64,000 bases of DNA, from assembly GCF_900095825.1 (NCBI RefSeq), contig NZ_LT608315.1, positions 691,465 through 755,464 of the forward strand, read 5' to 3'. How positions within the stretch are numbered: position 1 is the first letter of the stretch; each line of letters begins with the position of its first letter. The translations under genes and the position numbers were made by a program. The DNA is from Acidaminococcus massiliensis (GTDB lineage Bacteria > Bacillota > Negativicutes > Acidaminococcales > Acidaminococcaceae). Shown here piece after piece: positions 54,853 through 60,284 of this stretch. The notes under the pieces were generated by a model that saw only the letters and a program-made list of their open reading frames with translations, searched no databases and was not told the DNA's origin.

Positions 54853-55074
54853 GTACTATTTTTTAATAGCGTTCTAAATTATAAAAACGCAGATGGCTTG
54901 TTAAATGATTGGCGTTCGAAAAATTCAAGAGAATCATCAATGAGATATCAGTCAATTCAGCAGAAGATGTCAGATTTACCTGTTTATCTCTTTTCTTCTC
55001 TGCCAGGATACTATATACTTATATTATTGTATTTTGTGAAAAGTCTTTACGGACAAGTTGTTTTAGGGGGAGTC

Positions 55075-55443
55075 ATGAATATTGTTACGGAATTGGCGCT
55101 GATTTTCGGTGTCTGTCTGATCGGCATCGGAATCGCATCTTTGCTGCCTTTTATGGTGCCTTACAGTGTGATCAGCCTGCTGGTGCTGACGCTGCTGCTG
55201 TACCGGAAAATCCTGCGGCCGGAACAGATCAAGGATGCGGGAGTTTTTTTCATCCGGAATATGGGGATCTTCTTTGTACCGGCGGTGGTGGGAACCATGG
55301 AATATGTAGAGACCTTGACGAATTACCTGGTTCCCTTTTTGGTGATCACCCTGGTGACCACGCCGCTGGTGTATTTCATTGCCGGCTGGAGTGTCCAGCT
55401 TTGCTTGAAACTCCGCCGGAAGAAAGGAGCCGCCCATGCCTGA
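55075..55443 (+). CDS. lrgA: LrgA/CidA-family membrane protein
   Basis: 122-residue holin-like membrane protein with four helices. The segment IFGVCLIGIGIASLLPFMVPYSVISLLVLTLLL and the loop LRPEQIKDAGVFFIRNMGIFFVPAVVGTMEY are characteristic. The start at 55075 follows AGGGGGAGTC; the frame is open farther upstream but that part is AT-rich with no membrane or family pattern. It overlaps lrgB by 8 bp. LrgAB-type pairs affect murein hydrolase release or transport small acids such as pyruvate. Confidence 0.87.
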   Translation: MNIVTELALIFGVCLIGIGIASLLPFMVPYSVISLLVLTLLLYRKILRPEQIKDAGVFFIRNMGIFFVPAVVGTMEYVETLTNYLVPFLVITLVTTPLVYFIAGWSVQLCLKLRRKKGAAHA

Positions 55444-56119
55444 AGCCTTTACCCGTACCCCTTTCTTTGCCCTGACCCTGATCTTTATCTGTTGGGTGCT
55501 GGGGGTGAAGCTCCAGAAAAAAACAGGCTGGCTGCTGTGCAATCCGGTGCTGACTTCTTCTCTGATGATCGTGGTGATCCTGACGGTCACCGGTATCCCG
55601 CTGAAACATTTCAATGTGGGAGGCTCCATGATCACCATGCTCCTGGGTCCGGCTACGGCAGTACTGGCCCTCAATATCTACCAGCAGCGGAAAGTGCTCC
55701 AGGAGAACTTCCTGCCGGTCCTGGTGGGGTGTACAGCAGGGAGCCTGGGGAGTATCGCGGCGGCTCTGGCACTGTGCCACCTGTTCCAGACCAATTCCGT
55801 GTTTTCTGCCTCCATGCTGCCCAAAAGCGTTACCACGGCCATTGCCCTGGGGATTTCGGAAAACGGCGGGGGGATTCCCGGCATTACGGCTGGGGCGGTG
55901 GTGATCACTGGCATCGAGGGGGCTGTGCTGGCACCGTTCCTCAGCAAACTGTTCCACATCACGGATCCGGTAGCAGAAGGAGTGGCCATTGGAGCTTGCA
56001 GTCATGCGGTAGGGACCAGCAAAGCCTTGGAAATCGGCAAGATCCAAGGGGCAATGAGTTCCATTTCCCTGTGTGTGTGCGGGATCATAACCACAGGGCT
56101 GGCGCTGTTTTTTATGTAA
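55436..56119 (+). CDS. lrgB: LrgB/CidB-family membrane protein
   Basis: 227-residue polytopic partner of LrgA. The conserved MLPKSVTTAIALGISENGGGIPGITAGAVVITGI block near residue 125 and the SHAVGTSKALEIGKIQGAMSS segment near residue 190 define the family. About seven helices are predicted. It is translated from an ATG that overlaps the end of lrgA. No LytTR regulator gene is nearby, and I see no clear operator; in other bacteria this pair is used for pyruvate uptake or cell-lysis control. Confidence 0.9.
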   Translation: MPEAFTRTPFFALTLIFICWVLGVKLQKKTGWLLCNPVLTSSLMIVVILTVTGIPLKHFNVGGSMITMLLGPATAVLALNIYQQRKVLQENFLPVLVGCTAGSLGSIAAALALCHLFQTNSVFSASMLPKSVTTAIALGISENGGGIPGITAGAVVITGIEGAVLAPFLSKLFHITDPVAEGVAIGACSHAVGTSKALEIGKIQGAMSSISLCVCGIITTGLALFFM

Positions 56120-56121
56120 GA

Positions 56122-56151
56122 AAGGGGGTGTTGCAGGAGCAGCCCCTTTTT
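56122..56151 (+). terminator. Weak terminator after lrgAB
   Basis: GGGGgtgttGC and GCagCCCC form an imperfect hairpin followed by TTTTT. Confidence 0.5.
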
Positions 56152-56155
56152 CCTA

Positions 56156-56184
56156 TTGCCAACACCGAAGATTTTCGATACAAT
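56156..56184 (+). promoter_or_regulatory. Promoter of the M20 peptidase-transporter operon
   Basis: TTGCCA (56156-56161), 17-bp spacer, TACAAT (56179-56184). The leader of about 65 nt is AT-rich. Confidence 0.75.
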
Positions 56185-56255
56185 TAAAAATAATATACAC
56201 TATCTATGTATAAATTATCGGTGTTACTTTACTGTATTGGACAAAGGAGAGATTC

Positions 56256-57410
56256 ATGGAGCAGCAAAACGAAAAAATCCGGGAAGCGGTGGAAAGTTTC
56301 CGGAAGGAGATGCTGGATTTTTGGAAGGATCTGATCAACTTCCAGGCCGGCAGCAAGGAAAAAGAACGGATGCAGACCCTGATGGGAAAGGTGTCTGTTT
56401 ATCTCCAGAAGCTGGGATTGGAAAGTGAATTGGTGGAATCCGGAGCGGTACCCTTGATCCGGGCCTGGTCCGGAAAGGGCCGGGCCGGTCAGCCCATCCT
56501 CCTCAGCGGCCATTTGGATACGGTGTTCCCCGACGGCAGCTACCCGGAAGACCCCTTTACCATCAAGGAAGGAAAGGCCTATGGCCCCGGGGTCTGTGAC
56601 ATGAAGGGGGGCATCGTCATGGCGGTCTATCTGGCCAAAGTGCTGGAAAAGATCGGTTATGACCAGCATCCCATCAAACTGCTCTTCGTCCCCGATGAAG
56701 AAATCACCCACCAGGGATCTCAGGCAGACCGGCTGCTGGCGGAAGAAGCCCAAGGCTGCCTGTGCGCCTTCAACCTGGAAACCGGCCGGATGGATGACTG
56801 TCTCACCGTTGGCCGGAAGGGCTGTATGGATGTGTGGATCACCGTCCATGGGAAGGCCGGCCATGTAGGCAACGCTTACGCCTCTTCTGCCAATGCTATT
56901 GAAGAGATGGCCCACAAGATCATTGCGCTCCGGGCCTTGACGGATCTGGAAAAAGGCCGGATCGTCAGTACGGACATCATTTCCGGTGGTACGGTTTCCA
57001 ATGCGGTGGCAGATACCTGCCGGATCGAAGTGGACTGCCGGTATGATTACAATGAAGACAAGGACGCATTGGAAAAGGCCATCCGGGCCATCTGTGCTGA
57101 GACCCACGTACCTGGGACCCGGACGGAAGTGGAATTCCCTGCTTTCATGCCCGTCTTCGAACGGACCGAAGGCAATGACCGGCTGCTGGACCTGGTGAAC
57201 CAAGCGGCGGCAGAGTTCGGCCTCCCGGCTTTCGGGGCGGCCCATCCCGGCGGCTGTTCCGATGCCTCCTTTATGGCCCAGGCGGGGATCCCCATCTTGG
57301 ATTCCGTAGGGGTCAAGGGGGATGGGGCCCACACCCTCCAGGAATATGCCATCGTCGAAACTATGTTTGAACGGACCATGCTGCTGGCTGCGGCCATCTG
57401 CCGTCTGTAA
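56256..57410 (+). CDS. M20-family metallopeptidase (carboxypeptidase G2-like)
   Basis: 384-residue dinuclear zinc hydrolase of the M20A/ArgE-CPG2 group. Metal ligands and catalytic residues are in SGHLDTVFPDGS (His and Asp), GPGVCDMKGG (bridging Asp), VPDEEITHQGS (catalytic Glu and ligand Glu) and AHPGGCSDASFMAQ. The dimerisation lid begins near residue 185 (RKGCMDVWITVHGKAGHVGNAYASSANAIEEM). It is 21 bp upstream of a YfcC-type carrier and probably acts on a peptide or acyl-amino acid that this carrier brings in. The substrate is not determined. Confidence 0.9.
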   Translation: MEQQNEKIREAVESFRKEMLDFWKDLINFQAGSKEKERMQTLMGKVSVYLQKLGLESELVESGAVPLIRAWSGKGRAGQPILLSGHLDTVFPDGSYPEDPFTIKEGKAYGPGVCDMKGGIVMAVYLAKVLEKIGYDQHPIKLLFVPDEEITHQGSQADRLLAEEAQGCLCAFNLETGRMDDCLTVGRKGCMDVWITVHGKAGHVGNAYASSANAIEEMAHKIIALRALTDLEKGRIVSTDIISGGTVSNAVADTCRIEVDCRYDYNEDKDALEKAIRAICAETHVPGTRTEVEFPAFMPVFERTEGNDRLLDLVNQAAAEFGLPAFGAAHPGGCSDASFMAQAGIPILDSVGVKGDGAHTLQEYAIVETMFERTMLLAAAICRL

Positions 57411-57431
57411 CTGCTGCAAAGGGGAGTTGTC

Positions 57432-58871
57432 ATGACAGAAAACAAACAGGAAACCGTTCAGAAACCTGTGAACAAAAAAGTATCAGTGCCCAGCCCGATC
57501 ATCATCATTTTCTTTATCTTGATCCTTACGGCCATTGCCACCTATCTGATCCCGGCCGGGACTTTTGATCGGGTGAAGGATGCGGCCAGCGGGCGGATGG
57601 TGGTAGATCCCAATACTTTCCATTTCATCGCCCGGCATCCTGCTGGATTCTTCGATGTGTTCAAGGCTGTGCCCCGGGGCGTCAAGGGAGCCAGCGGCAT
57701 TGTAGGCTTCCTGATGATCATCGGCGGAGCCCTGAATGTGATGGCTTCCACGGGAGCCATCAATGGGGCGCTGGGGCACGTGGTGACCAAAGTCAAAGGG
57801 CGGGAGATGCTGCTGATCCCGGTGCTGCTCACCATTATGACCTGCCTGAGCACCTTTGCCGGCTGCAGCGAGGAATACATCGCCTTTGTGCCTCTCATCA
57901 TGGCCGTATGCTATGCCTTGGGCTTTGATTCCATCGTGGCGGTGGCCATGCCTTTGGCCGCGGTCAGCGGGGGTTATGGGGCCGGGGTGACCAATGCCTT
58001 TACCGTAGGGGTGGCCCAGAGCATTTCCGGTCTGCCCATGTTTTCCGGCATTGAGATCCGGGTGGCCATGCTGGTCGCCCTGATTATCATCAATGTGTCC
58101 TACACCATGTGGTATGCCCGGAAGATCAAGAAGAATCCAGAAAGCAGCTACATGTACGACTACGATCAGATCTACCGTCCCCAGATGGATCTGAGTGCTT
58201 ATGAAGGGGACAATGTGCTGATGACCGGCCGGCAGAAGATCATCATGGCCGGCTTCGTGGTGACTGTAGGCGCCATCCTGGTGGGGGTCATCAAATTCGG
58301 CTTCTACATGGATGAACTGGCAGCCCTGTTCCTGATGATGGCTGTCTTTGCCGGTATCGTGGGCCGGCTCAGTGTCAATGATTTTGCCAACGCTTTCATC
58401 GGCGGGGTGAGAAACATGGCCATGCCCTGCATGATGGTTTCCCTGTGCAAAGGGGTGACCCTGCTCATGGGGGACAGCAAGATCCTGGATACCATCATCT
58501 ACTACCTGGCGGCGGGGCTGAATGTGTTCCCCCAGTCCCTCCTGGGCTTCGGCATGTTCATCGTCCAGGATGTATTCAACCTGGTGGTGCCCTCCGGCTC
58601 CGGCCAGGCTGCCATCACCATGCCCATCATGGCGCCTCTGGCGGACCTGGTGGGGCTCACCCGTCAGACTGCCGTCCTGGCCTTCCAGATGGGGGATGCC
58701 TTCACCAACATGATCACTCCGGCCAGCGGCACCACCATGACCGTACTTACCGTAGCCGGTGTACCTCTCCGGCGCTGGTGGAAGTTCGCCTTCCCTCTCT
58801 TGGGGCTGGAATGGATCTTTGCCTTTGTGGTCATGTGGTATGCATCCGCTGTCCATCTGGGACCTTTCTGA
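57432..58871 (+). CDS. YfcC-family membrane transporter
   Basis: 479-residue polytopic carrier of the YfcC/C4-dicarboxylate anaerobic carrier superfamily, which also contains arginine/ornithine exchangers. The N-terminal cytoplasmic tail is followed by PSPIIIIFFILILTAIATYLIPAGTFDR, a family hallmark. The conserved TFAGCSEEYIAFVPL segment and the C-terminal NLVVPSGSGQAAITMPIMAPLADLVG motif near residue 385 are present. RBS AAAGGGGAGTTGTC. It shares a transcript with the M20 peptidase. Cargo is probably a peptide, acyl-amino acid or amino acid. Confidence 0.88.
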   Translation: MTENKQETVQKPVNKKVSVPSPIIIIFFILILTAIATYLIPAGTFDRVKDAASGRMVVDPNTFHFIARHPAGFFDVFKAVPRGVKGASGIVGFLMIIGGALNVMASTGAINGALGHVVTKVKGREMLLIPVLLTIMTCLSTFAGCSEEYIAFVPLIMAVCYALGFDSIVAVAMPLAAVSGGYGAGVTNAFTVGVAQSISGLPMFSGIEIRVAMLVALIIINVSYTMWYARKIKKNPESSYMYDYDQIYRPQMDLSAYEGDNVLMTGRQKIIMAGFVVTVGAILVGVIKFGFYMDELAALFLMMAVFAGIVGRLSVNDFANAFIGGVRNMAMPCMMVSLCKGVTLLMGDSKILDTIIYYLAAGLNVFPQSLLGFGMFIVQDVFNLVVPSGSGQAAITMPIMAPLADLVGLTRQTAVLAFQMGDAFTNMITPASGTTMTVLTVAGVPLRRWWKFAFPLLGLEWIFAFVVMWYASAVHLGPF

Positions 58872-58914: not shown

Positions 58915-58942
58915 TTGACAAATTTTCTTGAAAGCGTATAAT
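58915..58942 (+). promoter_or_regulatory. Promoter of the T-box leader
   Basis: A consensus TTGACA (58915-58920) and TATAAT (58937-58942) are separated by 16 bp. Transcription would start near 58949. Confidence 0.85.
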
Positions 58943-58948
58943 AAGGCC

Positions 58949-59240
58949 CATAACAAAACATCAGACAGTGTTGATTGGGAAAAGTACTTGTCCATCCTGA
59001 CATTCCAGAGAACCTGCCGTTTGGTGCGAGGCAGGATGTCCAGGGGAGAAGGAAAATCACCCAGGAGCTGCCCGCTGAAAGGATGCAAGTAAGTGGGGCC
59101 GGCTGACAGCCGTTATTCTGTCCGGCATTGGAAGGGAAATCCGGAGATGCTTGTGAAGAGGTCGCAGCCGCGACAACAAGAGTGGTACCGCAGAGCACAG
59201 CGCTTTGTCTCTTACAGGAGACAAAGCGCTTTTCTTTTTC
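58949..59240 (+). promoter_or_regulatory. T-box riboswitch, apparent isoleucine (ATC) specifier
   Basis: The T-box core AGAGTGGTACCGC is at 59180-59192; its TGGT can pair with the tRNA end ACCA. Stem I is seen in 58980-59080: AAAAGTACTTG gives the S-turn side, AGAGAACCTGCC/GGCAGG the distal stem. Alignment by eye to the glyQS leader puts the specifier at GGAAA-ATC-A, an Ile codon, in the middle of GGAAAATCACCC (59058-59069 region). A terminator hairpin follows the T-box. Confidence 0.88.
59199..59240 (+). terminator. Regulated terminator of the T-box leader
   Basis: A 13-bp stem AGCGCTTTGTCTC (59199-59211) with GAGACAAAGCGCT (59218-59230) and a T-rich tail. The 5' arm directly follows the T-box sequence, so the antiterminator can compete with it. 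Confidence 0.88.
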
Positions 59241-59300
59241 TCCCAGGGAAGCCATCAGCCGTTTGATTTTTGCAGAAAACATCTTTTGGAGGGGTAAACA

Positions 59301-60284
59301 ATGAATCTGTTGACAAAAGTAAGTGGTTTCGTAGGGAAAAATCTCACCTGGCTGGTGCTGGCCACCATCGTGGGAGGGTATTTCGTACCGGGGGCCTTTT
59401 CCTGGTCCGTCCATTACACTGTATGGCTCCTGGGAGTGGTGATGTTCGGCATGGGCATGACTCTCCATCTGTCCGATTTCAAACTGGTGCTCCAACGGCC
59501 CAAGGAAGTCCTGGCTGGCACGGTGTGCCATTATACCATCATGCCCTTGGTGGCTTTTGCCCTTACCAAGGTGTTCCACCTGAGTCCGGATCTGGCAGTG
59601 GGCATGGTGCTCCTGGGTTCCTGCCCCAGCGGCACAGCTTCCAATGTGATGAGCTTCCTGGCCAAAGGGGATGTGCCCCTGGCCGTATCTGTCACTACCG
59701 TTTCCACCCTCTTGGCCCCTGTGATGATGCCCTTCCTGGTATGGGCCCTGGCCGGTGAATATGTGGACGTCTCCTTTATTTCCATGGCTCTTACGGTCAT
59801 GAAAGTGATCCTGGTTCCCCTGGTGCTGGGGCTCCTGGTCCACAAAGCAGTGGGAGAAAAATTCCTGGCCCAGATCCAGAAAGTGCTGGTACTGCTGTCC
59901 GCTTTTGCTGTGCTGTCCATCCTGGGCGGCGTGGTGGCCGTGAACGGGGCCAAAATCGTGGCTCTGGGGACCTTTGTGGTGGTGCTGGTGCTGCTCCACA
60001 ACCTGGTGGGCTTTGGTATGGGGTATTTTATCACCGGGAAACTGGGCATGGGCAAACCCCAGCAGCATTCCGTAACCCTGGAAGTGGGGATGCAGAATGA
60101 CGCACTGGCCCTGTCTATCTGCGCTGTGTACTTCGCTCCTGCCATGGCCATCCCGGCCGCTGTAGGCGCCGCCGTCCATCAGATCACTGGTTCCTTCCTA
60201 GCCGGTCTCTTCGCCCGGAACATGGAACGGTATGAAGCAAAACAAAAAGCCACAGAAAAAGTTTCTGTGGCGGTAGGAGATTGA
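59301..60284 (+). CDS. Bile acid:sodium symporter (BASS) family transporter
   Basis: 327-residue, ten-helix secondary carrier of the BASS family. Motifs such as VMFGMGMTLHLSDFKLVLQRP near residue 47, GSCPSGTASNVMSFLAKGDVPLAVSVT near residue 109 and TLEVGMQNDALALSICAVYF near residue 255 fit the PanS/YocS branch, whose known cargos include ketopantoate and other 2-oxo acids. Control by an Ile-type T-box points to a substrate that serves isoleucine supply, such as a branched 2-oxo acid or 2-oxobutyrate. Start follows GGAGGGG. Sodium coupling is likely in this organism. The substrate is inferred only. Confidence 0.87.
   Translation: MNLLTKVSGFVGKNLTWLVLATIVGGYFVPGAFSWSVHYTVWLLGVVMFGMGMTLHLSDFKLVLQRPKEVLAGTVCHYTIMPLVAFALTKVFHLSPDLAVGMVLLGSCPSGTASNVMSFLAKGDVPLAVSVTTVSTLLAPVMMPFLVWALAGEYVDVSFISMALTVMKVILVPLVLGLLVHKAVGEKFLAQIQKVLVLLSAFAVLSILGGVVAVNGAKIVALGTFVVVLVLLHNLVGFGMGYFITGKLGMGKPQQHSVTLEVGMQNDALALSICAVYFAPAMAIPAAVGAAVHQITGSFLAGLFARNMERYEAKQKATEKVSVAVGD

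Follow-up and report, generated by a model that had tools for sequence, protein, structure and literature searches.

For many bacterial carriers of the BASS family, the substrate has never been tested, and no BASS protein is known to transport amino acids. Among the described members, PanS (equivalog model NF047939) is a ketopantoate/pantoate transporter, and ASBT_NM (PDB 3zuy, 8oyf) has been solved with pantoate. In the accessible part of the ASBT_NM report (PMC10645422), the carboxylate of pantoate contacts main-chain atoms of Thr112 and Ala113, the 2-hydroxyl contacts Gly267 and Asn265, and the far hydroxyl contacts His294 and Asn295. Additionally, Ile203 and Ile47 touch the tail of the ligand, and Ile207 is a possible contact during movement. 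T-box leaders of the RF00230 family have a Stem I specifier, a UGGN sequence that fits the tRNA discriminator, as set out in the available portion of the TBDB paper (PMC7778990), and a terminator that overlaps the antiterminator. According to the accessible portion of Wels 2008 (PMC2494555), transporters controlled by T-boxes fall in the MFS, APC, NSS, DAACS, LIVCS, NhaC and ABC families, with BASS absent, and BrnQ (LIVCS) is a secondary carrier under branched-chain T-boxes in other Firmicutes.

The window analyzed here, a stretch of 64,000 nucleotides (G000:C4:691465-755464) of a 2.67 Mb genome, contains what appears to be a single transcription unit composed of a promoter, a T-box leader, a terminator and a lone BASS gene, BASS1 (Table 1). 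Like BrnQ, BASS1 is a secondary carrier under a branched-chain T-box; in contrast, it belongs to another protein family, and no T-box match lies ahead of the BrnQ gene of this genome. A DcuC-type permease gene is located upstream of the unit, and a Fur/PerR-family gene is located downstream on the opposite strand. The upstream row on the + strand (window positions 54946-58871) comprises LrgA, LrgB, an M20-family peptidase and a DcuC/YfcC-type permease. For the promoter, the shuffled region yields 0.7 sites matching at least 9 of 12 consensus bases. The span 58949-60284 given in a preliminary description of this DNA agrees with a unit running from the transcript start to the stop codon.

Table 1. 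Features of the BASS1 transcription unit (window coordinates).
Feature	Position	Strand	Evidence
Sigma-70-type promoter, TTGACA-16 nt-TATAAT	58915..58942	+	12/12 consensus bases
T-box leader RNA, Stem I to antiterminator	58962..59215	+	RF00230, 116.6 bits, E 4e-25
Specifier codon AUC (Ile), followed by A	59056..59058	+	Covariance alignment; frame calibrated on 12 own-genome T-boxes
T-box core sequence TGGTACCGC, UGGU able to pair with A73 of tRNA-Ile	59183..59191	+	Covariance match and letters
Intrinsic terminator hairpin and T tail, sharing sequence with the 3' arm of the antiterminator	59199..59240	+	Folding
BASS-family carrier BASS1, 327 aa	59301..60284	+	ORF and PF01758 profile

In the Rfam covariance search, the leader exceeds the gathering threshold of 93 bits and covers model positions 1-219 of 219. 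The terminator hairpin (59199-59230) has 14 pairs and a T tail, with a folding energy of -23.2 kcal/mol (z -7.9). The antiterminator fold (59176-59215, -10.5 kcal/mol, z -1.5) is by energy not clearly above shuffles, and Stem I by itself gives a z of -1.2 against shuffles. As the terminator and the antiterminator overlap, the two folds are mutually exclusive. Moreover, the specifier matches tRNA-Ile(GAU), the gene for which is present in the host genome, and UGGU fits the discriminator of this tRNA. Collectively, these features make a transcription-attenuating Ile T-box a well-supported prediction for the leader, and the difference from other RF00230 T-boxes lies in the controlled gene, a BASS carrier. 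The preliminary description had likewise placed a T-box with core and terminator ahead of a BASS-family carrier, and both parts of this claim hold.

The same description read the specifier as ATC by alignment to the glyQS leader. The RF00230 alignment places AUC at this site, and the Ile reading was upheld when T-boxes of the genome itself, instead of glyQS, served as the reference for the frame. The genome contains 18 RF00230 matches at E ≤0.001, 11 of them above gathering. Twelve matches, before ilvB, ilvC, valS, pheS, cysE, metA, serA, leuA, thrS, ileS, leuC and trpE, formed the calibration set; the six omitted were those of BASS1, BASS2 (the second BASS gene of the genome) and a MatC-like gene, these three being themselves the subject of the test, those of L010 and L016 (amino acid unclear from either gene) and that of L018 (glyQ). 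The calibration genes were named from their translations, and NCBIfam agrees for 11 of the 12, three of which score below their model cut-offs (metA, trpE and ileS, the last truncated by the edge of its locus). The ilvB fragment, which has a masked stretch, gave no NCBIfam match at threshold and shares 79% identity with a Megasphaera acetolactate synthase that does match. Frame 0 yields the fitting amino acid in all twelve T-boxes and frames -1 and +1 in none, any of Ile, Leu and Val being counted as fitting for ilvB and ilvC. Additionally, the UGGN base and the host tRNA discriminator form a Watson-Crick pair in 11 of the 12 and a G-U pair in one (Trp). An Ile specifier occurs in 4 of the 17 own-genome T-boxes for which a specifier was read, namely those of ileS, ilvC, BASS1 and BASS2.

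BASS1 scores 151.9 bits against PF01758 (BASS/SBF; cut-off 24.3), which confirms the family, and 243.2 bits against the narrower NCBIfam model TIGR00841, below its cut-off of 326.3. Residues 1-310 align with the ASBT_NM structure 3zuy at an E value of 3.3e-74; solved BASS structures thus match BASS1, and the fold is clear. A carrier of Acidaminococcus fermentans (L028) is 97% identical to BASS1, so that Acidaminococcus is the most likely source of the window.

We searched for relatives of the carrier at two scales. A genome_contigs pattern scan of 84,980 species gave 79 loci with carrier relatives, drawn from the best 80 of 88 matches. Among these, the eight closest loci (68-97% identity) all have a T-box above gathering, and a core search of up to 900 bases upstream of the other 71 loci (≤47% identity) gave one doubtful match (L091); L056, L064, L077 and L089 have less than 750 bases upstream. 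In 380 Negativicutes genomes searched at E ≤1e-90, some of which coincide with the named loci, 27 close homologues were found in 23 genomes of four genera. A T-box core lies 118-153 bases ahead of the aligned start in each of the 27, and RF00230 matches precede all of them, 25 above gathering, with L139 at 90.9 bits and L149 at 66.9 bits. Further T-box-BASS pairs, a survey of which the preliminary description had suggested, are therefore a constant feature of these homologues. The Stem I of the L149 leader looks shortened, with the specifier region and the core retained, possibly by a distal deletion.

Specifiers in the clade were read by eye, with covariance alignments for the eight named loci, L139 and the window. 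They are AUC (Ile) in 18 homologues, GUC (Val) in eight and CUC (Leu) in one. N-UC codons can only stand for Ile, Val, Leu or Phe, so the restriction to branched-chain codons is by itself modest evidence. Four genomes have two BASS1 copies, and the specifiers always differ within the pair: Ile and Val in G334, G337 and G341 (the copies being 1-3 kb apart in G337 and G341), and Ile and Leu in G331. Since Val and Leu specifiers occur among the homologues, the group is connected with branched-chain amino acids as a whole, and the purely isoleucine meaning originally given to this connection was dropped. The type of regulation is known, and a T-box on a BASS carrier is apparently unreported in the literature searched; the full-text search found no report of such a link, and as central reviews and supplementary tables lay outside its scope, priority is uncertain. 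The accessible main text of an RNA-regulon survey (PMC3766115) contains no mention of 'bile acid'.

To compare the binding pockets, residues were numbered as in ASBT_NM. The Na+ ligands S114 and N115 and the pantoate-site residues T112, A113, N265 and H294 are retained in all 27 BASS1 proteins. In contrast, N295Q, G267A, I203V and F15L distinguish all 27 from ASBT_NM, and 21 of them have D266. Gln295 occurs in none of the 105 other BASS proteins examined (34 BASS2 and 71 distant), in which this residue is Asn (101), Tyr (3) or unreadable (1), and Ala267 occurs in only two of them. These changes may reflect one event on the tree, so they do not represent 27 independent cases. Similarly, Asp266 is found in none of the 105 others, and the six g5 BASS1 proteins have Ser (5) or Ala (1) at this position. 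Of the positions that we take to be further Na+ ligands, E260, V261, M263, Q264 and T132 are kept in 27/27, S128 in 15/27 and Q77 in 7/27; the incomplete retention of the last two counts against a predicted Na+-coupled importer.

A maximum-likelihood tree of the 27 BASS1 proteins, four BASS2 proteins and ASBT_NM places the 27 in one clade (support 100/99). On the best tree, the specifier changed at least three times; one of these changes leads back from Val to Ile and concerns three nested rows. All nine Val/Leu types have Val at residue 207, where all 18 Ile types have either Leu (12) or Met (6); moreover, residue 75 fully splits the Ile types from the Val/Leu types, and residue 293 separates them apart from a single exception. 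Among other three-change partitions of the same tree, at least two perfect columns occur in 2/600 (the first 600 entries of a shuffled list), and when short branches are left out, in 26/3605, 24/1600 and 22/579. Comparable partitions with at least two perfect columns thus amount to 0.3% to 3.8%, depending on how short branches are treated. The set of 11 pocket sites in these tests was picked post hoc and is therefore not relied on, and an independent-pairs sign test had too few pairs to reach significance. The match between residue 207 and the specifier, which rests on three tree changes, is suggestive and not proof. We tentatively propose that the clade consists of tRNA-wired importers of branched-chain 2-oxo acids (or amino acids), in which the leader codon and the pocket (residue 207, together with 75 and nearly 293) may have switched together among Ile, Val and Leu types, with one return from Val to Ile, so that each copy would import the precursor of the amino acid that its leader senses.

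BASS2 (C4:1649977) shares 37% identity with BASS1 and is likewise preceded by an Ile T-box, as are three further loci of the same genus (L100-L102, Acidaminococcus). No nearby T-box core was found at the 26 other BASS2 loci among the best 30 of 67 matches. The BASS2 leader is most similar to the leaders of ilvB (74.6%) and ilvC (72.5%). Unlike BASS1, BASS2 retains N295, G267 and F15, and in some of its relatives ilvD or panC adjoins. Within 1.5 kb flanks, ilvD lies before BASS2 in 5 of the 29 loci L100-L128 (best 30 of 67 matches); in four of the five, 18-28 bases separate the two genes. In addition, BASS2 follows ilv genes in 4 of 18 regions (L185, L186, L187 and L198), all of genus g94, which we take as Megasphaera. 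The order ilvC-ilvB-ilvN-ilvD-BASS2 is plain in L185, where NCBIfam profiles were used for the ilv genes, and in L187; it is partly obscured by antisense ORFs in L186 and L198. Three of these four regions reach the ilvC leader, and its specifier is AUC in all three. Terminator-like hairpins are located between ilvD and BASS2 in L186, L187 and L198 and could separate transcription of the carrier from that of the ilv genes, so co-transcription in Megasphaera is not shown.

Among the 71 distant loci (best 80 of 88 matches), a BASS gene follows ilvD in three, all of Sporolactobacillus (L035, L042 and L069); in L035 and L042 a second BASS gene comes next. The gene panC adjoins 15 of these 71 loci and 4 of the 29 BASS2 loci (best 30 of 67 matches), with PanC and PanD profiles run on one representative and the remainder assigned by similarity. 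Through the panC and ilvD neighbors, the family of the carrier is connected both with ketopantoate/pantoate and with the final steps of branched-chain synthesis, in which branched 2-oxo or 2-hydroxy acids take part. PLP-dependent aminotransferase-like genes near BASS1 at some loci were too few and too related to be counted.

Based on these observations, the best overall explanation, to which we assign a probability of about 0.55, is that BASS1 is an Ile T-box-controlled BASS importer, most likely of branched-chain 2-oxo acids. The anticodon of uncharged tRNA-Ile(GAU) would pair with the AUC specifier, and the NCCA end of the tRNA would pair with UGGU. The bound tRNA would stabilize the antiterminator, and RNA polymerase would continue into the carrier gene; with charged tRNA-Ile, the terminator would form. 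The carrier is predicted to be an elevator-type importer of the BASS kind, probably coupled to sodium. Its pocket seems to retain the elements that hold the carboxylate and the C2 oxygen, with the partner of the far hydroxyl of pantoate changed. The likely cargo would be branched-chain 2-oxo acids; in this genome, 3-methyl-2-oxopentanoate would be taken up, and a transaminase could convert it to the missing amino acid. In relatives, gene copies appear to be wired to Val or Leu with a matching pocket change. Within this model, the leader, the specifier, the terminator, the protein family and the phylogenetic pattern are computational results, and the response to tRNA, the direction of transport, the Na+ coupling and the exact substrate are predictions. 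In this proposal, the leader indicates which amino acid is concerned, the kind of compound follows from the related genes, and the residues of interest are given by the pocket. If it is true, anaerobes that have neither ilvC nor ilvD might nevertheless make isoleucine by taking up 2-oxo acids. Searches for amino acid permeases would overlook such cross-feeding in gut and rumen. Collectively, the results suggest that the BASS1 group is a type of importer in branched-chain amino acid supply that has so far escaped notice.

The gene content of the 23 BASS1 genomes bears on the choice of substrate. IlvC is above cut-off in 15 of the 23, the eight without it being G007, G280 and the six g5 genomes (G013-G018); IlvD above cut-off was not found in the six g5 genomes, G280 and G343. 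Seven of the 23 genomes hence have neither ilvC nor ilvD above cut-off, and all seven keep the carrier with an Ile specifier; their completeness is 100% for G013, 98% for G018, 99% for G280 and 87-93% for the others. Since these genomes have no usual route from 2-oxobutyrate to isoleucine, 2-oxobutyrate, one of the two substrates named in the preliminary description, is disfavored. Its broader idea of a predicted importer of an isoleucine-related molecule is supported. The other substrate that it named, a branched 2-oxo acid, is still the best candidate, while amino acids and branched short-chain fatty acids also remain in consideration. We regard a role of the carrier in branched-chain amino acid supply as likely. 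Branched 2-oxo acids are, on balance, the best single guess for its substrate, with amino acids ranked second and branched fatty acids third.

Several observations count against 2-oxo acids. Aminotran_4 proteins are present in 16 of the 23 genomes and no match was found in the other seven, in which transamination would be left to other enzymes. The sole Aminotran_4 protein of G013, a g5 genome, resembles D-amino-acid transaminase and not IlvE. In contrast, the Aminotran_4 proteins of G280 and of the genome of the window reach branched-chain transaminase scores above cut-off, which in G280, one of the seven genomes with neither ilvC nor ilvD, speaks in favor of 2-oxo acids. Furthermore, in the accessible part of the structural report, ASBT_NM is stabilized by pantoate but not by ketopantoate, a 2-oxo acid (PMC10645422). 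A BrnQ-type amino acid carrier is present in all 23 genomes, so the need for a further importer is not obvious; a missing BrnQ as the motive for BASS1 was not found in any of the 23.

This ubiquity of BrnQ also weighs on the strongest alternative, that the carrier imports branched-chain amino acids themselves, with the BASS fold recruited for a zwitterion and Asp266 meeting the amino group. Asp266, present in 21/27 BASS1 proteins and 0/105 others, could suit an amino group, which also counts against 2-oxo acids. The T-box carriers in the accessible portion of Wels 2008 (PMC2494555) are assigned to amino acids, the loss of both ilvC and ilvD in seven genomes would suit this alternative, and so would G013, which has no IlvE above cut-off. 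However, the six g5 proteins have Ser or Ala in place of Asp266, so import based on this residue is kept only as a rival, and the panC and ilvD neighbors of related BASS genes indicate pantoate and 2-oxo acid steps. We consider import of the amino acids themselves rather unlikely.

Import of branched short-chain fatty acids (2-methylbutyrate, isobutyrate and isovalerate), which would be reductively carboxylated to 2-oxo acids and then transaminated, appears improbable. It would suit gut and rumen anaerobes and the genomes without ilvC and ilvD, and Megasphaera is said to make valine from isobutyrate, a finding ascribed to Allison and Peel in 1971. At L188, a CoA-transferase-like ORF, identified by reading, is located some 7 kb away from BASS1; gene context is a weak test here, as most BASS1 neighbors are unannotated. 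In contrast, the pocket keeps Asn265 and the main-chain positions, which, in the accessible part of the ASBT_NM report (PMC10645422), correspond to the C2 oxygen, and a plain fatty acid has no such oxygen.

Still less probable is a PanS-like importer of pantoate or ketopantoate with an incidental T-box link. BASS1 is related to PanS, matching NF047939 at 231.2 bits, and the panC neighbors of distant relatives and BASS2 loci described above fit such a role. However, this score does not reach the 400-bit cut-off, the pantoate hydroxyl contact N295 is altered in 27/27, and Ile, Val or Leu leaders precede all 27; a branched-chain T-box stands in place of pan genes. On score and pocket together, we reject a plain PanS identity. 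Finally, a specifier one base later, which would make all these leaders serine T-boxes, is hardly credible: UCN does stand in frame +1 of the BASS1 leaders and a G-U wobble between UGGU and G73 of tRNA-Ser is conceivable in principle, but the frame calibration (frame +1 right in 0/12, frame 0 in 12/12) and the discriminators reject it, with AUCA in the ileS leader and GUCA in the valS leader at the same place, and with serA reading UCC in frame 0 and having UGGC, which fits G73 of the four tRNA-Ser found, whereas BASS1 has UGGU.

Other leaders were also recorded. At L003 (G000:C4:1326403-1326661) and at L212, the gene for a MatC/CitMHS-like carboxylate carrier stands behind a Leu T-box (CUG). 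This carrier occurs in 2 of the 380 class genomes at E ≤1e-90, with a T-box above gathering in both, and its cargo may be a precursor of leucine, for instance 2-isopropylmalate. The T-box of L010 (G000:C4:1781073-1781323) reads UGC (Cys), yet its UGGU does not fit U73 of tRNA-Cys; behind it come the gene for a cysteine-rich protein, for which NCBIfam gave no match at E ≤1e-30, and a gene that reads as an ABC permease. In L012, positions 52-130 match the ZMP/ZTP riboswitch at 52.5 bits, approximately 1.4 kb before the leuA T-box.
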